The position numbers and the translations under genes were made by a program. From contig NZ_OMOQ01000001.1 in the NCBI RefSeq assembly GCF_900302475.1, positions 1,674,001-1,738,000 on the forward strand: a DNA stretch of 64,000 nucleotides, given 5' to 3'. This document shows, piece by piece, positions 5,209 to 54,005 of the stretch. The notes below the pieces were generated by a model. That model saw only the letters and a program-made list of their open reading frames with translations. It had not been told where the DNA came from and searched no databases. This stretch comes from Defluviimonas aquaemixtae (GTDB lineage: Bacteria > Pseudomonadota > Alphaproteobacteria > Rhodobacterales > Rhodobacteraceae). The number at the start of each line of letters is the position of its first letter. Position 1 is the first letter of the stretch.

Positions 5209-6713
5209 CCAGTCCCGCGCCCGCCGCCGTCGAGGAACCAGTCGTCGGGATAGGGATACCACCAGTCCTGCATCCTGGGTTTGTGGTCGATGACGACCAT
5301 CTTCGTGCGCCGGAACGCGTCGAGCCCCTGCCGCCCGAGTTCCCGCCCCACGCCGGACGCCTTCCACCCGCCGAAGGGCAGCGCGTCGTTGTCGATCAAG
5401 GGGTTGTTGACCCACACCATACCCGCTTCAAGCCGTTCCGCCGCCTCCATCGCCTCGCCGAGCCGCGTCGTGAAAACCGAGGCGCCGAGCCCGAAAGGCG
5501 AGGCGTTGGCGCGGGTTATCGCCTCATCGAAATCCTTCACACGAACGACGGCGGCGACCGGACCGAAGCATTCGGCGCGAAGCAGTTCCATCTCCTCGTG
5601 GCAGCCGGTCAGGATCGTCGGCTCGTAGAACCAGCCCTTCGGCTGATCGGGCGGGATGCACCCGCCAATTTCGACCTCGGCCCCCTTCGCGCGGGCATCC
5701 TCGACGAGCCTTGCCACCCTGTCTCGCGCCGCCTCGCTGACCAGCGGGCCGATCTCGCTCCGCCCAAGCCCGCTGCCGATGCGGAGCGACCGCGTGCGGC
5801 GGGCGAACTCGGCGACGAAGGTGTCATGGACGGCGTCCACGACGTACAGCCGCTCAGCCGAGGTGCAGACCTGCCCCGTGAGGTGGAAGGCCGCCGTCAC
5901 GGCACCGGCGGCGGCGACATCGAGCGGGGCGCTGTCGCTGATGATCATCGGATCGCTGCCGCCCGCCTCGATCACGGCGGGCTTCATCGCCTGCGCGGCG
6001 GCGGCGGCGACCGCGCGGCCCGCCGCGACCGAGCCGGTGAAGGCAACGGCGTGTGTGCGCGACGACGTCACGAGTGCCTGGCCAAGCCTGGCGCCACCCG
6101 GAAGACATGCGACAAGACTCTCCGGCACCTCGTTGAAATGTCGCATGAAATCGAGCGAACACAGCGTCGTCTCTAGCGCCGGCTTGACGATGCATCCGTT
6201 GCCGGCGGCGAGCGAGGCCGCGACGGTCCAGCACATGAGGAGGACCGGAAAGTTGAAGGGAACGATGTGAACGGAGACGCCAAGCGGTTCATAGCGCGCG
6301 TACTGGAACGACCCCGCCTGCGTCGTGCCCGCCACCTTGCCTGCCTCGTCGCGCGCCATCTCGGCATAGTAGCGGAAGACGGGCGCGCAATTGGCGATCT
6401 CGCCGATCGCCTCGGGATAGGGCTTGCCCATCTCGCGGCTCATCAGGATCGCCGTCTCCCGGTGGTCGGCCCCCTCGATCCGGTCCGCGAGGCGGTGCAG
6501 GGCCCGCGCCCGGGACTTCGCATCGAGCACCCGCCAGGCCCTCTGCGCGGCGGTCACTGCGTCGAGCACGGTCTCGCGTTCCGCTTCCGTGGCATCGGCG
6601 GTGTGGCCGACAATTTCGAGCGTGGCGGGATCGATGACAGGGTGCGCCGATCCCGTCATCGGACAGTAGCGGGGCGCGAGGTAGTAGGCCGGGCGGGCCG
6701 GATCGAACGCCAT
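5205..6713 (-). CDS. NAD(P)-dependent aldehyde dehydrogenase
   Basis: About 502 residues, normal for the ALDH superfamily. An ATG at 6719 is also in frame, but the AAGGA at 6724-6720 is well spaced for the ATG at 6713. Counting from 6713, the general base is Glu249 in VIEAGGSDPMII and the nucleophile is Cys283 in TGQVCTSAERL; the cofactor-binding stretch has PFNFPVL and FTGS. The reaction is oxidation of an aldehyde to a carboxylic acid in the cytoplasm. The closest look is to succinate-semialdehyde-type and broad-substrate enzymes, but the substrate is not clear. It is the last gene of a run starting with a polyamine-type importer, which would fit an amino-aldehyde substrate (inference). Confidence 0.92.
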   Translation of the reverse strand: MAFDPARPAYYLAPRYCPMTGSAHPVIDPATLEIVGHTADATEAERETVLDAVTAAQRAWRVLDAKSRARALHRLADRIEGADHRETAILMSREMGKPYPEAIGEIANCAPVFRYYAEMARDEAGKVAGTTQAGSFQYARYEPLGVSVHIVPFNFPVLLMCWTVAASLAAGNGCIVKPALETTLCSLDFMRHFNEVPESLVACLPGGARLGQALVTSSRTHAVAFTGSVAAGRAVAAAAAQAMKPAVIEAGGSDPMIISDSAPLDVAAAGAVTAAFHLTGQVCTSAERLYVVDAVHDTFVAEFARRTRSLRIGSGLGRSEIGPLVSEAARDRVARLVEDARAKGAEVEIGGCIPPDQPKGWFYEPTILTGCHEEMELLRAECFGPVAAVVRVKDFDEAITRANASPFGLGASVFTTRLGEAMEAAERLEAGMVWVNNPLIDNDALPFGGWKASGVGRELGRQGLDAFRRTKMVVIDHKPRMQDWWYPYPDDWFLDGGGRGTG

Positions 6714-46775: not shown

Positions 46776-48257
46776 TTAGCAGTCCCCAAGCCGGACAAGG
46801 CCCCAGCCGTATTCGTCATCCCGCCCCGGCGCGCCGAGGTCCTCGGCCCGCGCCGCGAGCGACCGTTCGATGGCCTCCCTCGTGTGGTTTCCGCGGGCGA
46901 CTTCATGCGCGACGAGCGCCGTCGCGATGGCGGCGGCGTAGGACGTACCGGAACGGTAGCTCTGCCCGCCCGGTCCGGCGACGAGCACATCGACTCCAGG
47001 CGCGGCGAAATCGATCTCGCGTCCCGCATTCGCTGAGATGAAGCGGCGCTTGCGGGCGTCGACCGCAGTGACGGAGATCACATGGGGGTCGGCTGCCGGG
47101 AAGGCGACGCGGTCGCGGCCGTCGTTGCCAGCGGCCGCCACGAGGATCAGGCCCCGCGCATCCGCCATCGACATGAGTTCGGCCAGCACGGAGTTTCTCG
47201 GCCCGGCTAGCGACATGTTCACGACGTCGACACTTTGGCCGATCATCCAGTCGACAGCCGCGATGAGGTGATCGAGCCGCATCTCGTTGCTGCTGCCATT
47301 CCGCGAAAACGCCACAGCGAGAAAAATCTGCGCGCCTGGTGCGATCCCGGCCGGCGGCCCTGTCTTCGGGTTCGCCGCGATCAGCGAGACAAGCCCTGTC
47401 GCATGTCCGGTCCCGGCCACGTCCTCGTCCACGTCAAGTACTGACCGGGTGACGATCGGAACATCAACAAGGGCCGCATTCGAGGCATCCGCCGGTCCGT
47501 CGATCAGACCGATTCTGACCGGACGGCCGAGTCTGCACGTTGCGCGCTCGGGCAACCCGACCATGCGTTGGGCGTAGCTCCGGCCCGGCCCGGCCATGGC
47601 GAATAGCGTGTTGCGGTCGAGCTTCACGACGATGCCTTTTCGAGCCAGCCGCGCACGAAGGATCGGCGGAGTCATGAGGGCTCCGATATCGACGGCGGAG
47701 ACGACGATGCCAAGCGTGCCGAGGCTCTGCCGGCGCAGGATCTCACCATTTATGTCGACGATCTCACGCTCCGCGCGCCCGACGTCGGCCGCCTGTCCGA
47801 CGATGAGGAATTCGGGTCGCCCGCTCGGAAGCGCGCGTTCGTGCCGCGACGCGGGCGCCACCATGGAACCCGCGCGATCATCCCGCCCGTCGCGGTCCTT
47901 CACTCGCGTGCTCGGTTGGTTAGGTTCCGGCTCCGGTTCGGGTTCCGGCTCCGGTTCGGGTTCCGGTTCCGGTTCCGGTTCCGGTTCGGGTTCGGGTTCG
48001 GGCACTGGTTCGGGCTCGGGTTCCGGTTCCGGTTCGGGTTCGGACTCCGGCTCGGGCTCCGGTTCGGGCGCGGGGTCGGGCCCCGGACCAGGATCCGGCG
48101 CAGGGCCCGGATCGGGTGAAGGTTCCCCCTCGCCCCCGCTCTCGGCCACGAGTTGGATCAGAGGGGTTGCTTGGGGCTTGTCCGGCGCGCCTGCCCGGGC
48201 TGCCCATGTCGCCGACAGCGTGCAGACCGCGATCAGCCACGCCCGGTGCCATGTCAT
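46776..48257 (-). CDS. Exported subtilase (S8 family serine peptidase) with a Glu-Pro repeat linker
   Basis: 493 residues. A signal peptide (residues 1-23, ending AARAGA) is followed by an Asp/Pro-Gly-rich stretch and an almost pure Glu-Pro repeat at residues 64-112. Residues about 147-222 look like a prodomain. The catalytic domain starts near 245 with Asp253 (IGLIDGP), His285 ([12 protein letters not shown]), Asn378 (AAAGNDG) and Ser439 ([10 protein letters not shown]), so the triad and oxyanion residue are intact. The Glu-Pro segment could span the periplasm or cell wall as in TonB-like proteins. The ATG overlaps the anti-sigma stop by four bases (ATGA), so sigma, anti-sigma and protease form one operon. 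Confidence 0.92.
47922..48068 (-). repeat. Six-base-period repeat encoding (Glu-Pro)n
   Basis: About 24 six-base units (GGTTCC, GGCTCC, GGTTCG, GGCTCG variants on the plus strand) encode residues 64-112 of the subtilase. Two units deviate to Ser or Val. Such arrays can change length by slippage without breaking the frame. Confidence 0.9.
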
Positions 48258-48838
48258 TCCGTGGCGTCCACGCTTTCGACGACGTCGGTCATGTTCGACA
48301 GGGCGGCCATGATCGCGCCCATATCCTGCGCCTCGGGCACCGCGACGCGATACAGTCCGATAGCGGAGGGGCCATCGATGATCGTCACGTCGAGCCCTAA
48401 TAGCAGTGCCGATATCTGCTGCTCCTGCGCCGACGGCCGGAATGCAACAACCAGGACCCGGGCGCTCGCATCGGCCCCGGCCTGTACGAAACGCGGCTCC
48501 CGGTCGTTCATCGACAGGTAGATCAGCGAGCCGAAGACGAACATCGCGGCGGCGACCGATGTCGCCACCATGCCGATCCTGGGACGGCGGGGCGCAGCCG
48601 GGCGTCCATCGATCTCCCGTCTGAGCCGCGCGAGCCCGAATTCGCCCGGTGTGTAGTCGACTTCGTCCTCCTTTACCGCTCCGCGAATGAGGTTCAAAAG
48701 CTCCACCTCCCGACGCAAAGCCTCATCCACGGACAACAGCGCCTCGACCTCGGCCCGTTCCTCGGCGTCGAGCGTATCGTTCACGTAGAACGGCAACAGC
48801 TCCGAAACTCTTTCTTTACTATCCAGTTTACTCGTCAT
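48254..48838 (-). CDS. Membrane anti-sigma factor with a prodomain-like C-terminal domain
   Basis: 194 residues from the ATG at 48838, which overlaps the sigma-factor TAA by one base (TAATG). Residues about 8-80 form an acidic zinc-free anti-sigma-type N-terminal region ([20 protein letters not shown]). One membrane segment is at residues 89-109. The outer part (about 125-194) reads [40 protein letters not shown] and a helix ending [12 protein letters not shown]. That beta-alpha-beta-beta-alpha-beta pattern is like I9/fervidolysin-type prodomains of S8 peptidases (my reading, not tested). It should hold the sigma factor at the membrane until a signal arrives. Confidence 0.85.
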
Positions 48839-49416
48839 TAGCGCATTTCCGCTTTCAATCGGGCCGACAGGCATCGCATGAGAAGCTGCTTGGCATGGAA
48901 AACCCGCGATTTCACCGTGCCTTCGGGCACACCCGTCACCGATGAGATGTCACGATAGCTCATGTCCTCGTAGAACGTGAGTTCGATGGCGAGCCGGTGC
49001 TCTGCCTTGAGCGTGTCGAGACACAGACGAATGGCCTGCGACTGCTGGGCGGCCAGCAGGCACGCCTCGGCATCGGGCCGGCTGTCGATCTGTTCAGGCA
49101 CTTCCTCCTCAAATGTCAGCCTTCCCTGCTGTCTAAAGGCATCAACGACCTTTCGATAGGCGATCGCGAAAACCCAGGTACGCACGCTCGATCGTTTCTG
49201 AAACGCCCCGGCACCGCGCCAGACTTCCAGAAAGACCTCATGGACTATGTCGGCCGAACGGAACGGATCGTTCAATTTAAGTCGGACAAATCGGAAAAGC
49301 GGACCCTCCATCTCCCGGTAGAAGCGCTCAAAAGCCTCCCGGTCCCGGCGGCCGATGGCCGCCACGAGGCTTTCGAGGTCGTCCGATTGCATATGGCGGT
49401 CGTGTTGCATGCGCAC
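48838..49416 (-). CDS. ECF-type RNA polymerase sigma factor
   Basis: 192 residues; ATGs at 49416 and 49410 are both possible. Region 2 is visible in FRFVRLKLNDPFRSADIVHE, VFLEVWRGAGAFQ and RTWVFAIAYRKVVDAFRQ. Region 4 is LAIELTFYEDMSYRDISSVT with GVPEGTVKSRVFHAKQLL. It has no region 3 and no extra domain. It is the first gene of the operon with its anti-sigma factor and a subtilase. ECF factors usually autoregulate; I could not identify a matching promoter with certainty in the 113 bases upstream. Confidence 0.93.
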   Translation of the reverse strand: MRMQHDRHMQSDDLESLVAAIGRRDREAFERFYREMEGPLFRFVRLKLNDPFRSADIVHEVFLEVWRGAGAFQKRSSVRTWVFAIAYRKVVDAFRQQGRLTFEEEVPEQIDSRPDAEACLLAAQQSQAIRLCLDTLKAEHRLAIELTFYEDMSYRDISSVTGVPEGTVKSRVFHAKQLLMRCLSARLKAEMR

Positions 49417-49529: not shown

Positions 49530-50438
49530 CTAGGCAGCGACGGCTGCCACGACCGAAACTCCGCGGAACGTCCGCACGGTGGCATCGATCGCGGCGCGGT
49601 CGCTCATCAGACATGCCGCGGTCGACAGCGAGTCGGCCAGACCGGCGGAAGAGGCCGAGAGCGAGACGCTGCGCCAGACCGGGGCAGCGGGACGACCGGT
49701 CGCAGGGTTCAGAATGTGGCCCACCTTTCCCGCCGCGTCGAAGACCGTGCCGAGCGGAGCCGAGGTCGCGAGCGCCCTGCCCAGCAGGCCGATCTGCCCG
49801 CGCGACGCAAGCCGGACGGGCCAGTGGTTGCCGTCCGGATGCCCGCCAAGCGCGCGAAGTTCGCCCGTGTCGATCAGGATGTCGGTCAGGCCCTCCGCCG
49901 ACAGAAGCGCCGCCACCCGGTCGGCAATGTAGCCTTGCGCGATTCCGTTCAGCGTAAGCGCCATGCCCGGGCGCAGGCGGATCTCCGAGCTGTCGAACGT
50001 GACGCCCGCCCATCCGACCCGCGCGCGGACCGCGTCGATTTCCGCCGCGTCCGGCAGGCGGCCCTTGACCGCCGTCTCGGCGTAAAGCGCCCAGAGCGGC
50101 TGGATCGTCGGATCGAACAGCCCACCGGTCGCGCGATGCGCATGCTTGGCCAGCGACAGGCATTCGAGAAGCTCCAAGTGCGGCGCCGCCAAGCGGCCGT
50201 CCCGGTTGAGTCGGGAAAGCGCCGAATCCGGGCGGTATAGGCTGAAGATGTCCTCCAGCCGGTCGATCTCGGCCATGGCATTTGCGGTGATCGCCGCCGC
50301 ATCGGGATGGACGAGGCGGATCGTTGCGCGGGCGCCGAGCGCGGTCCCCGTCCAAACATGCAACGCCTCCGCACGGGCCGAGAGCGGCAGGCTCGCACTG
50401 GCGGCGGTGACGGCGAGAAAGCGGCGGCGGGTCAGCAT
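49530..50438 (-). CDS. nosX: NosX: FAD:protein FMN transferase (ApbE family) of the nos operon
   Basis: 302 residues from the ATG at 50438. The N-terminus MLTRRRFLAVTAASASLPLSA is a twin-arginine-type signal. The ApbE domain shows IDRLEDIFSLYRPDSALSRL, LNGIAQGYIADRVAALL and LIDTGELRALGG. ApbE/NosX transfers the FMN moiety to a Thr of NosR in the periplasm. It starts five bases beyond the nosL stop and is the last gene of nosRZDFYLX. Confidence 0.92.
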   Translation of the reverse strand: MLTRRRFLAVTAASASLPLSARAEALHVWTGTALGARATIRLVHPDAAAITANAMAEIDRLEDIFSLYRPDSALSRLNRDGRLAAPHLELLECLSLAKHAHRATGGLFDPTIQPLWALYAETAVKGRLPDAAEIDAVRARVGWAGVTFDSSEIRLRPGMALTLNGIAQGYIADRVAALLSAEGLTDILIDTGELRALGGHPDGNHWPVRLASRGQIGLLGRALATSAPLGTVFDAAGKVGHILNPATGRPAAPVWRSVSLSASSAGLADSLSTAACLMSDRAAIDATVRTFRGVSVVAAVAA

Positions 50439-50442
50439 CGGT

Positions 50443-51003
50443 TCATCCTCCCCGCCTTTGGGCGAGCGCCCGCAGACGATCTTCGTAATCGTCCTCACCA
50501 ACGCCCTCTTCCAGTGAGACGGGCGTCAACACCTCGACGTCCGGAATCGTGTCGAGCCGCATCACACGTCCGCCATGAGTTTCGGCGAAGGTGACCGCGG
50601 TATCTGCCGCGCCGAACGGCACCAGTTCGGGCGCGCCCATGCCGCCCTGTCGCTCGGACCCGACGACATAGAAGGCCTCGTTCGCCGCGATCCAGTTCGC
50701 GGCGCCGGGGGCCTCCCAGTTGGGCGCCGCTCCCATGTCGTTGACATAGATCGCGGCGATGTCGTGGCTCTGCTCGGGCATCCGGGCATAGGCCACTGCA
50801 TCGCGGACCTGGCTGAAGAAGAGCGGCGCGCCCGGCAGACCGTCGAGATGGACCTGGGCTTTGGGGCCGGGATGCTCCAGGATGTTCATCTGGCAGTAGT
50901 GTCCGACGGCGTCGGCCGTCATCGCGACCGGGTTCGGCGGACCCGCCCCGTCCTCCTGGCAGGCAGCAAGAAGGGCGAGCGACAGAACCAGGACGCGTCT
51001 CAT
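50443..51003 (-). CDS. nosL: NosL: copper chaperone lipoprotein for nitrous oxide reductase
   Basis: 186 residues. A lipoprotein signal ends in the lipobox LLAAC (Cys15 lipidated). The NosL copper-binding region is HYCQMNILEHPGPKAQVHL, with Cys37 and Met39 as Cu(I) ligands by family comparison. It delivers copper to NosZ apoprotein with NosDFY. The ATG overlaps the nosY stop by four bases (ATGA). Confidence 0.93.
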   Translation of the reverse strand: MRRVLVLSLALLAACQEDGAGPPNPVAMTADAVGHYCQMNILEHPGPKAQVHLDGLPGAPLFFSQVRDAVAYARMPEQSHDIAAIYVNDMGAAPNWEAPGAANWIAANEAFYVVGSERQGGMGAPELVPFGAADTAVTFAETHGGRVMRLDTIPDVEVLTPVSLEEGVGEDDYEDRLRALAQRRGG

Positions 51004-51821
51004 GGCGTTACCTTTCTGAAGGCAAGGGTTGCGAGGCTCAGGGCCGCAAACGGCCAGAGAATGACCGATGCGAGCGACTGCCAGAGGGGGATCGCGCCGG
51101 CGGCCGCGCCGACGCCGGCCGCCGCTGCGGTTGCCTCTGAGGCCGAAAGGTTGAATAGACGGAACGCGTCGGCTGGATTGGCCAGAAGCGCGAGCGGGAA
51201 GATGTCGGTCGTAAAGCGCCCGCCGTCATCGGCGACGATGGCCGCGAGAAGCCCCAGATCGTAGAGCACAACGAGCCCCAGCCAGAGTCCTATGGCGAGC
51301 CCCGCCGCGCCCGACGGCCGGCGGGCGAGCGACGAGATCGCATAGCCCGCACCGAGGAACGTCGCGCCCAAGAGCACCGAGGTCCAGGTCAGCCGCCAGA
51401 GTGCAGGCAGGCCGGCACGCGCGCCTTCGTCAAGCGCGATGGCCCCCGCGGCGGCGATTCCGTAGCCCGCGACGACTGCCAGCGACAGGACTGCGATATG
51501 GGCAAGAAGCTTGCCCGCGAGGATCTGCCAGCGCGCGACGGGATAGGTGAGAAGCAACGGCAGCGTGCCGCGCTCCACCTCTCCGGCGACTGCGTCGAAG
51601 GACATGAGTAGAGCTACGAGCGGCACGAGATAGACCGCGAGCGAGGTGAGCGAAGCGACGGAGACCGACAGCCGGTCGACCCCGAGCGTTCCGGTAGGCG
51701 CCGAGCTCGCCGCCGACAGCACGATCGCGAACAGGGCCATCAGCGCAACCGCGATCGCCACCCAGCGGTTGCGAAGCGCGATGCGGAACTCTGAGCCTGC
51801 TGTGGCGAGGATGCGTTTCAT
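51000..51821 (-). CDS. nosY: NosY: ABC-type permease for NosZ maturation
   Basis: 273 residues from the ATG at 51821 (ATGA overlap with nosF); a longer reading to 51950 lies inside nosF. Six hydrophobic segments follow a short cytoplasmic start. VAGEVERGTLPLLLTYPVAR is the typical NosY/ABC2 cytoplasmic loop, and a small-residue-rich segment lies near 235-250. With the ATPase NosF and periplasmic NosD it supports CuZ assembly in nitrous oxide reductase. Confidence 0.93.
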   Translation of the reverse strand: MKRILATAGSEFRIALRNRWVAIAVALMALFAIVLSAASSAPTGTLGVDRLSVSVASLTSLAVYLVPLVALLMSFDAVAGEVERGTLPLLLTYPVARWQILAGKLLAHIAVLSLAVVAGYGIAAAGAIALDEGARAGLPALWRLTWTSVLLGATFLGAGYAISSLARRPSGAAGLAIGLWLGLVVLYDLGLLAAIVADDGGRFTTDIFPLALLANPADAFRLFNLSASEATAAAAGVGAAAGAIPLWQSLASVILWPFAALSLATLAFRKVTP

Positions 51822-52714
51822 CGCGCGTCCCTCCGGCTGAAATGGCTGTAGATGTCTTCGAGACTCGGCGGCAGGACCTCGAGGTCGGCCACCTTGTCGC
51901 CGAGCCCTGTGATCCGCGACAGAACGTTGAGCTTTTCCTCTTGTGGGCACGTGAGGTGCAGCGCACCACCGACATGGATCGCTCCGGGCAGCGCCTCGGC
52001 GATCTGGCTGGTGTAGCCGTTCCGCGCCATCACGTGCATCGCGACCGGAAGCGCAGCCGTCTGGCGCAGGTCGGCGAGTGAGCCGGAGGCGACGAGCCGG
52101 CCCCGCGAGAGGATCACGATGCGATCGGTCCGCGCCTCGACTTCGGTTAGCGCGTGGCTCGAGAGCAGGATCGCGGCGCCGTCGGCCGCCAAACCGTCGA
52201 GAAGCGCGTAAAAATCGCGCCGCGAGACGGGATCGAGGCCCGAGGTTGGTTCATCCAGCACCAGAAGCCTCGGCTTGCCGATCAATGCCTGGGCGAGCCC
52301 GACGCGCTGCCGCATGCCCTTCGAATAGGTGCCGATCCGGCGTTTCGCGGCGCCGGCGAGGTCCACGCGTTCCAGAAGCTCCATCGCGCGGCCCGGCTTC
52401 TCGCCCCGAAGGCTGAGATAAAGGCGGAGCTGTTCGAGCCCCGTCAACGCCGGGTGGAAGGCCACGTTCTCGGGCAGATAGGCGACCTTGTCGCGCGCCT
52501 CGCGGCTGCCGGGCGCGGCACCCGTCACCGTGACCTCCCCCGCATCCCACGGGATGAGACCGAGGACGACCTTCATCAGCGTCGACTTCCCTGCCCCGTT
52601 GTGGCCGAGCAGCGCCACGCGCTCGCCGGGCGCGACGTCGAGCGAGACTTCGGCAAGCGCCGTGACGCCGTCGAACGCCTTAGTGAGACGCGAGATTTTC
52701 AACGTCGATGTCAT
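51818..52714 (-). CDS. nosF: NosF: ATP-binding protein for NosZ maturation
   Basis: 298 residues from the ATG at 52714, within the 3' end of nosD (35-base overlap). Walker A is GHNGAGKS, the signature is YSKGMRQRVGLAQAL and Walker B is LLVLDEPTSGLDP. The C-terminal extension after residue 215 is typical of NosF. It powers the NosDFY complex at the inner membrane. Confidence 0.93.
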   Translation of the reverse strand: MTSTLKISRLTKAFDGVTALAEVSLDVAPGERVALLGHNGAGKSTLMKVVLGLIPWDAGEVTVTGAAPGSREARDKVAYLPENVAFHPALTGLEQLRLYLSLRGEKPGRAMELLERVDLAGAAKRRIGTYSKGMRQRVGLAQALIGKPRLLVLDEPTSGLDPVSRRDFYALLDGLAADGAAILLSSHALTEVEARTDRIVILSRGRLVASGSLADLRQTAALPVAMHVMARNGYTSQIAEALPGAIHVGGALHLTCPQEEKLNVLSRITGLGDKVADLEVLPPSLEDIYSHFSRRDAR

Positions 52715-54005
52715 CGTGGTCACCTGTTTTCCAGCGTTCCGCGGCGGCGGCCTCCATGGCCGCGACATCGTCGGAAACGGGAATGTTGACGGGGGTCATG
52801 AGCGGATGGCTGTCCACCACTCCGCCCGGAAGGGTCGCGGGGAAGCTCGCCTGCGACCAGCGGATAAGCTGCACCGCCGGAGCGCCGGTCAGAAGCGCGG
52901 CAGCGGGCTGAGACCAGAGGATGTGGTCCATAAGGTCATTGGGGCGGAAGGCGCTGTCGGCGATACCGTCGGCGTTCAGATCGTAAGCGGGGTGATCCGA
53001 CCAGAAGTTGCCCCGCCCGTCGAAGCTCCACTCGACATCCTTGGTACCGACGTACTTCACCTGGTTCCGGTTGCCGAGGACGGCGTTGCCGGTCAGCACG
53101 TTCCGCTCGGAGCCTGCTGTAAAGTGGATGCCGATATCGCAGCCTTCGAAGCGGTTGTCGTAGATGAGGTTCTTGTGCGCGTTGTAGATGAAGGTGCACT
53201 TTTCCGTGCCGCCGCGCACGAGATTGCCCGAGACGTCGGCATTGTTCGCGTAGTTCAGCATGATGCCGTGGCCCCGGTCGCCGAGGCTCATGTTGTTCTG
53301 CACGACAACCCGGTTCGAAAACATTATCGCGTAGCCGAGATGGTTTCCGATGCTGATATTGCCCGAGACCTCGGAGTTGTTGGTGTACATGTAGTGGATC
53401 GCGAAGCGCAGGTCGCGAAGCAGGTTGTCGCGATAGATCCCGTCCTTCGACGTATTGGTGAAGATGCCGTCGCGACCGTAGCGGATGTCGTTGCCCTCGA
53501 TCACCGCGCCCGGAGCGTTCCAGACATAGACGCCGTTGCCGCGCTCGTTCATGCGGTGGTTCTGCGTGCCCTCGATCACGTTGCCACGCACCACAGCATC
53601 GCGCCCGCCATGCACGTCGATGCCATAGAGATTACCGATCAGGCGGTTCCCTTCGATCAGCGCGCGGTCGGCCTCCTTGGTTATCTTGATGCCGGAATCG
53701 ATGTGCTCGTGGCTTTTGCCCGACCCGGTCACGGACAATCCGCGCACGACAACGTCGTCGTCGGCTATGGTGAGGACTGTACCCTGCCCTCGACCATCAA
53801 CGACCGCCTCGCCTTCGGCGCGGATGGTCAATGGCCGGTCGATGGTGACGGGGCCCACATGGGTCCCGTCACCGAGGATCAGAACATCGCCGGGCAAGGA
53901 CCCGGCGATGGCGTCCTGCAGACTGTCCACCCCCGCGACCACGCGCACTTCTTCCGCGCCCGCGGGCACGGCCATAAGCGAGAGGATGAGGGGCAGGAAG
54001 CGCAT
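52680..54005 (-). CDS. nosD: NosD: periplasmic beta-helix protein for CuZ assembly
   Basis: 441 residues from the ATG at 54005, two bases after the nosZ stop. A signal peptide (residues 1-17, ending VPAGA) is followed by a right-handed parallel beta-helix (NosD/CASH repeats) with GIDVHGGRDAVVRGNVIEGT, NEVSGN-like turns (NNSEVSGNISIGNHLGYAIM) and GNFWSDHPAYDLNADGIAD. It brings copper or sulfur to NosZ together with NosL and NosFY. A reading extended to 54287 is inside nosZ and rejected. Confidence 0.94.
   Translation of the reverse strand: MRFLPLILSLMAVPAGAEEVRVVAGVDSLQDAIAGSLPGDVLILGDGTHVGPVTIDRPLTIRAEGEAVVDGRGQGTVLTIADDDVVVRGLSVTGSGKSHEHIDSGIKITKEADRALIEGNRLIGNLYGIDVHGGRDAVVRGNVIEGTQNHRMNERGNGVYVWNAPGAVIEGNDIRYGRDGIFTNTSKDGIYRDNLLRDLRFAIHYMYTNNSEVSGNISIGNHLGYAIMFSNRVVVQNNMSLGDRGHGIMLNYANNADVSGNLVRGGTEKCTFIYNAHKNLIYDNRFEGCDIGIHFTAGSERNVLTGNAVLGNRNQVKYVGTKDVEWSFDGRGNFWSDHPAYDLNADGIADSAFRPNDLMDHILWSQPAAALLTGAPAVQLIRWSQASFPATLPGGVVDSHPLMTPVNIPVSDDVAAMEAAAAERWKTGDHDDIDVENLASH

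Follow-up and report, generated by a model that had tools for sequence, protein, structure and literature searches.

The window analysed here is a stretch of 64,000 nucleotides from Defluviimonas aquaemixtae (contig NZ_OMOQ01000001.1, positions 1,674,001 to 1,738,000), whose source genome comprises 4.24 Mb in 18 contigs. Within it, three genes packed head to tail on the minus strand (46776-49416) encode an extracytoplasmic function (ECF) sigma factor, an anti-sigma factor and a peptidase of the subtilase family S8. The pairing of this anti-sigma factor with the peptidase gene, by means of an outer domain that resembles a subtilase prodomain, is well supported by the comparisons described below, and the likeliest role of this domain is that of a receptor on which the partner peptidase docks, through which the fate of the anti-sigma factor would be controlled.

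The sigma gene ends in a TAA whose last A (48838) is also the first base of the anti-sigma ATG, an overlap of one base that gives a 194-residue reading of the anti-sigma factor, and an alternative ATG located upstream, at 48874, would give 206 residues. The anti-sigma stop codon and the ATG of the S8 gene overlap, in turn, by four bases (48254-48257). A first-pass annotation made from the sequence alone had described a sigma/anti-sigma/subtilase triad with overlaps of one and four bases, and these coordinates bear it out. The gene identities that it proposed also fit, considering that the sigma factor matched Sigma70_r2 (45.3 bits) and Sigma70_r4_2 (54.1 bits), both above the cut-off, that the anti-sigma factor reads as a single-pass protein, and that the third product matched Peptidase_S8 (94.1 bits) and started with a signal-peptide-like N-terminus. 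The features of the locus are presented in Table 1, together with the caspase-like C14 genes of four related loci discussed further on.

Table 1. Features of the sigma/anti-sigma/S8 locus (window coordinates) and C14 genes of related clusters (coordinates preceded by the locus), in which the prodomain-like protein is an anti-sigma factor or resembles one.
Feature	Coordinates	Strand	Basis and remarks
ECF sigma factor, 192 aa	48838..49416	-	Sigma70_r2 and Sigma70_r4_2; frame checked; listed GTG start, start codon uncertain
Single-pass anti-sigma factor, 194 aa	48254..48838	-	Open reading frame; zf-HC2 below cut-off; homologues adjoin sigma genes
Anti-sigma N-terminal region, residues 1-85, presumed cytoplasmic and sigma-binding	48584..48838	-	zf-HC2 match; alignment A1
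Transmembrane segment, anti-sigma residues 88-106	48521..48577	-	Top 19-residue hydropathy window
Prodomain-like outer domain, anti-sigma residues 126-194 and stop	48254..48463	-	PF22148, AlphaFold2, Foldseek, hhalign, alignments
Exported S8 peptidase, 493 aa	46776..48257	-	Peptidase_S8; PDB subtilisin matches; signal-peptide-like N-terminus
Glu-Pro-rich peptidase linker, about residues 44-113	47919..48128	-	Sequence; P+E fraction
Prodomain-like region of the peptidase itself, about residues 146-224	47586..47822	-	N-termini of 53 triad S8s aligned
S8 catalytic domain, about residues 244-487, with D253, H285, N378, S439	46797..47528	-	Sequence comparison
C14 gene	L096 6956-7807	-	S8-less prodomain-like anti-sigma cluster
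C14 gene	L097 3382-5025	-	S8-less prodomain-like anti-sigma cluster
C14 gene	L175 1656-3401	-	S8-less prodomain-like anti-sigma cluster
C14 gene	L176 4588-6939	+	S8-less prodomain-like anti-sigma cluster

The N-terminal region of the anti-sigma factor matched zf-HC2 at residues 10-33 with 18.9-19.1 bits, below the cut-off of 22.2, and this family was also matched by 16 of 25 anti-sigma relatives at E <= 1. As is characteristic of Class I (ZAS-like) anti-sigma factors, the gene adjoins that of an ECF sigma factor, which here takes the form of the gene overlap. Zinc cysteines were absent from residues 1-85 of the window protein, and an H-x3-C-x2-C arrangement was retained in the same region of the Xenophilus homologue (L006). 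The most hydrophobic 19-residue windows were found at residues 88-110, beyond which the outer domain follows.

It was for this outer part (residues 126-191) that the relationship with subtilase prodomains was observed. PF22148 (Fervidolysin_NPro-like) was the sole Pfam match to it, with a borderline score: 20.0-20.3 bits for the whole protein and, once the domain was cut out, 22.1 bits, the cut-off being 21. Of the 60 outer domains aligned from related loci (A2), 20 matched PF22148 at E <= 0.1, with a best value of 1.6e-6, and every other Pfam family was matched by one of them at most. When A2 was compared by hhalign with the N-terminal regions of 53 neighbouring S8 peptidases, a score of 26.0 over 62 columns was obtained, in which the best of 300 column-shuffled controls reached 15.2 and the reversed control 9.1; the corresponding scores against the sigma factor, the S8 catalytic domain and the anti-sigma N-terminal domain were 15.6, 15.5 and 8.5, respectively. 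A search of PDB sequences with the A2 profile returned one weak match (E 0.019), to an unrelated-looking protein. Moreover, G156 and P157, in the GPSAxGLYR turn, were invariant in 25 relatives, and G156 was retained in at least 90% of the 60 domains.

The AlphaFold2 model of the outer domain, built from two sequences only (those of the window and of Xenophilus L006), presented the strand and helix order E-H-E-E-H-E, that is, the beta-alpha-beta-beta-alpha-beta fold of PF22148, with a predicted local distance difference test score (pLDDT) of 81.2 and a predicted template modeling score (pTM) of 0.64. A Foldseek comparison of this model with the PDB gave 1197 matches at E <= 10 and none at E <= 0.001. 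Among the 50 matches listed, 16 were subtilase prodomains or pro-forms, counting entries titled only Pro-S324A and similar, which we take to be pro-subtilisin, and including 2z58_B (template modeling scores of 0.66/0.77), 1spb_P (0.63/0.69) and the PC1/3 prodomain bound to furin; every listed match with a root-mean-square deviation (rmsd) of 2.3 A or less belonged to this group. The prodomain look that had been attributed to residues 125-194 was, in this way, recovered both by profile and by the structure prediction that had been suggested as its check. The resemblance is real and probably reflects homology, of which a shared fold by itself is no proof. A direct match of the domain profile to a true S8 prodomain, so considered by annotation (L170), was not used as evidence, because chance matches to serine hydroxymethyltransferase (SHMT) and siroheme genes (L167-L169, L171) scored alike. 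In L170 (3592-7806, plus strand), a single open reading frame combines an S8 domain with a thermolysin-like M4 domain and a match to dockerin.

In its beta-alpha-beta-beta-alpha-beta order and its subtilase-propeptide-like model, and with its borderline PF22148 match, the outer domain resembles the propeptide-like subtilase inhibitors of family I9 and the fervidolysin N-terminal prodomain (PF22148); unlike these, it belongs to an anti-sigma factor of the membrane and, in most members, is without the active-site-filling tail. PF22148 domains are located N-terminal to the S8 domain in one chain, whereas here the domain is the C-terminal part of the anti-sigma factor and the S8 is encoded by a separate gene. 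Real prodomains extend into the active site of the protease, as known from subtilisin structures. Past the last strand of the outer domain, 1-3 residues were counted in 35/60 sequences, none in 1/60 and 4-17 in 24/60; the window domain has three, and no tail that would enter an active site. A tail motif of the type N/H/Q-x(1-3)-aromatic (N-x-x-Y/F-like), searched as a loose pattern, occurred in 47 of 53 S8 prodomains versus one of 60 anti-sigma domains. Since the outer domain is mostly devoid of the active-site tail, docking is likelier than a product-like inhibition of the protease.

In most loci, the partner peptidase keeps the catalytic residues of a subtilase. In the window protein, D253, H285, N378 (the oxyanion asparagine) and S439 occupy the subtilisin positions, as judged by matches to subtilisins of the PDB, and Ser439 had been rightly taken as the catalytic serine in the first-pass annotation. 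Over 62 distinct loci, the catalytic Asp was found in 59 (with three not covered), the His in 62 and the Ser in 54 (with eight not covered), and the triad is retained wherever the locus sequence covers it. Besides, a prodomain region of its own was visible in the 53 aligned N-termini of triad S8s, an alignment that leaves out seven rows with truncated N-termini and contains one locus twice (L042/L101), and it was also read from the start of the open reading frame in S8s of reversed-order loci. As the partner peptidases keep their own prodomains, the outer domain does not replace them. Subtilase prodomains fold their protease, which would speak for an outer domain acting in trans as a foldase (chaperone) of the partner; this explanation was rejected because the triad S8s already carry a prodomain, and it is regarded as very improbable.

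Regarding the export of the peptidase, no lipobox was found by pattern in the window protein. A lipobox-like S8 N-terminus was seen in 10 of 12 reversed-order loci (by eye, some of them atypical), and such an N-terminus would keep the S8 close to the membrane. Between residue 31 and the prodomain of the window peptidase, proline and glutamate account for a fraction of 0.59, and a Glu-Pro repeat, encoded by a repetitive GC-rich tract, is found between signal peptide and prodomain; other low-complexity linkers occur in related proteases. A structure model of the S8, also made from two sequences, reached a pLDDT of 38.6 and was not used.

Homologues of the anti-sigma factor were found in 25 of 198 genomes labelled as the window's family, one of which (L032) was of another type. 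Searches with alignment A1 at E <= 0.001 covered 289 genomes of the class, with matches in 88, and 299 of the phylum, with matches in 85; most of these matches covered the N-terminal part alone and corresponded to other anti-sigma factors, some of which served as controls. With the outer domain alone as query, 29 genomes were matched among 244 of the order, and 44 among 398 of the phylum, the weakest phylum matches being mostly due to chance. A single-sequence scan of named genomes revealed an identical triad layout in Xenophilus sp. L33 (L006) and an anti-sigma factor without the outer domain in Actinomycetospora termitidis (L007). In the searches made, domain-bearing loci came from 18 family labels within the window's phylum. 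A mobile origin was considered and set aside: no plasmid match for the window anti-sigma factor was obtained by tblastn, and a scan of viral contigs returned three pattern matches with no confirmed relative.

Ninety-three distinct domain-bearing loci were gathered in this way: 60 from the searches of family, class, phylum (A1) and named genomes, 23 from the order and 10 from the phylum domain search. Repeat loci had been dropped (L036 and L109, which equal the window; L023/L033; L029/L035; L105, L107, L108, L110, L112, L130; and, from the phylum domain search, L137-L151, L154, L155, L157 and L159-L162), as had the chance matches L164-L169 and L171, and the S8 prodomain L170. An S8 gene adjoins the anti-sigma gene in 87 of the 93 (58/60, 21/23 and 8/10, respectively). 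In the survey of co-occurrence that the first-pass annotation had called for, the counterpart was an S8 within about 1.5 kb of only two of 25 control anti-sigma genes without the domain (L062, L064). These controls were the best-scoring partial matches and hence a non-random set, from which more than 100 further partial places were left out; L007 and L032 were included, and L055 and L056 are short stretches at contig ends. In 12-kb control stretches, an S8 was found in 0/20, or in 2/22 once the two positives are counted in with their wider stretches, L099 and L100; the 20 comprised 14 of the 25 controls and six new ones, and the two positives were taken separately. Fisher's test on 79/83 versus 2/25 gave 2.6e-17, with relatedness ignored. 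A chance neighbourhood was rejected on these grounds, given that control anti-sigma loci are mostly without S8. The two positive controls (L062/L099 and L064/L100) harbor a different ECF sigma/anti-sigma pair, with no prodomain-like domain by profile and with the S8 transcribed away, and represent a second S8-linked type of anti-sigma factor.

The linkage also withstands changes in gene order. Among the first 83 loci, counted with L003 dropped as a duplicate of the window, 63 presented the order sigma>anti>S8>, 12 the reversed order sigma>anti<S8>, two the order S8>sigma>anti> and six other arrangements, four of these without S8. This persistence argues for a working unit. A split module was noticed in one genome, in which L133, with a sigma factor and a prodomain-like anti-sigma factor, lies 68 kb apart from L134, with an anti-sigma factor and an S8.

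Sites of the form TGAAC-N16-18-CG[AT]C, which resemble known ECF promoters, were found ahead of the sigma gene in 13 of the 63 loci of operon type, in both S8-first loci and in none of the 12 reversed-order ones. In the latter, the site preceded the anti-sigma gene in 11/12 and the S8 gene in 5/12. An unbiased count retrieved GAACC-N16-CGAC in 18 of 80 upstream regions; in one shuffled set, no pair of this kind was counted more than five times. As these sites stand before both the anti-sigma and the S8 genes, the sigma factor appears, from this sequence pattern, to drive the two of them. A weak candidate in the window, TGGCA-N16-CGAC, is not conserved in two genus mates.

Several results weigh against the view of the outer domain as a dock for its neighbouring S8. 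The promoter region of the window itself displays no clear copy of the ECF-type motif. In addition, a mirror-tree analysis of 75 loci revealed no domain-specific coevolution of the outer domain with the S8: the partial correlation was 0.113 for the outer domain, a value reached in 3 of 500 permutations, and 0.127 for the N-terminal domain. The oxyanion asparagine is replaced in seven of 61 covered S8 loci, including that of Xenophilus, and the C14 partners of four loci mean that the outer domain is not strictly bound to S8; one of the genomes with a C14-type locus (G684) had no S8 match by Pfam search.

The best listed Foldseek E-value belonged to a DAHP synthase (rmsd 2.9), the listed matches outside the prodomain group were mixed, with many RNA-binding (RRM), S6 and ACT domains, and nothing reached E 0.001. 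These results, like those of the mirror-tree analysis, are what would be expected if the domain shared with prodomains only a ferredoxin-like fold and sensed something else, the S8 gene being simply one of those that the sigma factor targets; the ECF-type site before the S8 in 5/12 reversed loci fits a target gene, and the caspase partners also suit this explanation. It is difficult to reconcile, however, with the PF22148 matches in a third of the members (20/60) when no other family matched more than one, with an hhalign score well above those of all 300 shuffles, with the restriction of the low-rmsd listed matches to subtilase prodomains or pro-forms, and with the control anti-sigma loci, which lack the domain and mostly lack S8. 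An unrelated sensor is considered quite unlikely.

The substitutions at the oxyanion position bear on a different alternative. In the seven S8s concerned (L006, L030, L067, L076, L077, L080 and L082), Pro, Asp, Glu or Arg occupies the position, and the Asp/His/Ser triad and the linkage are kept; judging from these residues, this sub-group may be weakly active or inactive. A pseudo-protease was rejected for the window and most relatives, in which the catalytic residues are retained, but may apply to these 7/61. A receptor needs no protease activity, so that a receptor role suits such S8s better than a cutting role. Prodomain relatives, moreover, often inhibit subtilases. The outer domain might, then, be a tethered receptor and inhibitor comparable to RsiV, which would bind and restrain an active protease, either the cell's own or a foreign one, with two outcomes: binding would let another protease cut the anti-sigma factor, or it would stabilise the anti-sigma factor and make the protease a negative feedback. 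The outer domain of RsiV is a different domain from the prodomain-like one. According to a study of this protein, RsiV binds the active-site pocket of lysozyme, inhibits it and is thereby destroyed (PMC5014341), which is a precedent for such a receptor. This alternative has the same anatomy and linkage behind it as a model of cleavage by the S8, but the tail that would fill the active site is mostly absent, and the protease is the product of the cell's own neighbour gene in 87/93 loci, which suits a built-in partner over a foreign one. We regard it as somewhat unlikely.

Six domain-bearing loci have no S8. In four of them (L096, L097, L175, L176), a caspase-like C14 gene was found in the cluster; L133 is a sigma/anti-sigma pair whose sister locus L134, in the same genome, has the S8, and L135 stops at a contig end. 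The presence of C14 in all four assessable loci without S8 suggests another explanation, in which the domain would be a general peptidase receptor, with an S8 partner in most lineages seen and a C14 partner in two families, and which overlaps with both the cleavage and the receptor/inhibitor readings. The single C14 gene among the 20 wide control stretches (L192) also follows an anti-sigma gene (5482-6300, minus strand) whose product ends in what resembles a diverged outer domain (3.4 bits, by eye). The proposal depends, nevertheless, on just four loci under two family labels, in two of which the C14 lies about 1.5-2.5 kb from the anti-sigma gene; no sigma gene was found by profile at L176, and, of ten wide S8-type loci, one (L094) also has a C14 nearby. 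A general receptor is considered unlikely. It was also observed that L096 encodes a CHAT-domain protein beyond the sigma gene, and that L097 (6451-6951, minus strand) and L175 (4917-5630, minus strand) encode a second single-pass-looking protein with the outer domain, adjoining a sulfate-permease-like gene. Regarding the first-pass proposal that the outer domain serves as a docking site, inhibitor or substrate of the subtilase, the prodomain relation and the S8 linkage stand, a product-like inhibition has become less likely given the short tail, and the partner is not always an S8, as the four C14 loci reveal.

A model in which the three genes form a module, and the docked mature S8 acts as the site-1 protease of the anti-sigma factor, is tentatively put forward, with somewhat less than an even chance of being right. 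Its computed parts are the gene anatomy, the prodomain relationship, the linkage, the S8's own prodomain and the ECF-type sites in one sub-group, to which we add, as what we infer, docking, cleavage, the order of events and the signal. The ECF sigma factor would be held by an anti-sigma factor bearing, in the periplasm, a captured subtilase prodomain devoid of the active-site tail, and the peptidase would be made as a zymogen with a prodomain of its own. Once this prodomain is shed, the docking face of the S8 would be open to the anti-sigma domain, which would dock on the prodomain-binding face of the exported enzyme. The engaged protease would then remove the anti-sigma factor, a site-1 cut in the short juxtamembrane linker being the likeliest way, which would lead to intramembrane proteolysis and release of the sigma factor, and the freed sigma factor would provide more anti-sigma factor and more peptidase. 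It is also possible, though less likely than not, that the module senses the zymogen state, the tail-less captured prodomain competing with that of the protease for one and the same face and turning the maturation, or the free amount, of this periplasmic protease into transcription; re-fitted to caspase-like peptidases in some lineages, it would be a general peptidase-sensing module.

The flanks of the module are unrelated to it. On one side lie genes for an aldose epimerase and a TRAP transporter, and on the other apbE, nosL and ATP-binding cassette (ABC) transporter genes; the latter group (49530-52768) suggests a nitrous-oxide reductase (nos) cluster.

Some features of the proposed scheme are found in known systems. 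Mammalian site-1 protease (MBTPS1) is a subtilase with its own prodomain that starts the release of SREBP, in a manner alike to the one proposed here, although that system is eukaryotic and SREBP is not known to have a prodomain-like domain, unlike the anti-sigma factor. DegS is a PDZ protease encoded elsewhere. In the RseA/DegS/RseP system of sigma-E and other systems of the site-2 protease (S2P) type, an ECF sigma factor, a single-spanning anti-sigma factor and an external site-1 protease take part, following the general scheme given in a site-2 protease review (PMC10202637), and the S8 would take the last of these roles. In the sigma-V system of Bacillus subtilis, the outer part of the anti-sigma factor RsiV likewise binds a hydrolytic enzyme and the bound enzyme is the signal, according to the study cited above (PMC5014341); binding of the S8 would be the equivalent step, with the difference that lysozyme is foreign for RsiV, whereas here one unit encodes both the peptidase and the anti-sigma factor. 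ECF54 sigma factors also have subtilase genes nearby, along with carboxypeptidase and CHAT genes, so that the subtilase context is common to both, but they are described as working without an anti-sigma factor (PMC8999054), whereas the window sigma gene overlaps an anti-sigma gene.

The site-2 protease review contains no occurrence of subtilisin or subtilase (PMC10202637), the same terms are absent from a review of regulated proteolysis (PMC7593790), and subtilisin and prodomain are absent from a study on how class I anti-sigma factors coevolve (PMC7406223). Among the papers listed in the open literature searched, no description of the module was found in the titles and abstract starts; a large ECF reclassification paper, outside those listings, may mention the subtilase context. 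As far as searched, a sigma/anti-sigma/protease module with a prodomain-like outer domain is undescribed.

To our knowledge, the best-known anti-sigma factors meet a protease that is encoded elsewhere, and their outer domain rarely reveals what is sensed. Here, since the relative of the outer domain has a known job and its partner is encoded next to it, the signal sensed by an anti-sigma factor becomes testable with two proteins, and the prodomain-like domain suggests that the neighbouring protease is itself what the switch senses. If this is true, subtilases would be added to the proteases known to act on bacterial sigma factor control, and the prodomain of a protease would have found a new use as a receptor, whereas the caspase-like partners would mean that one sensor serves two unrelated peptidase clans.

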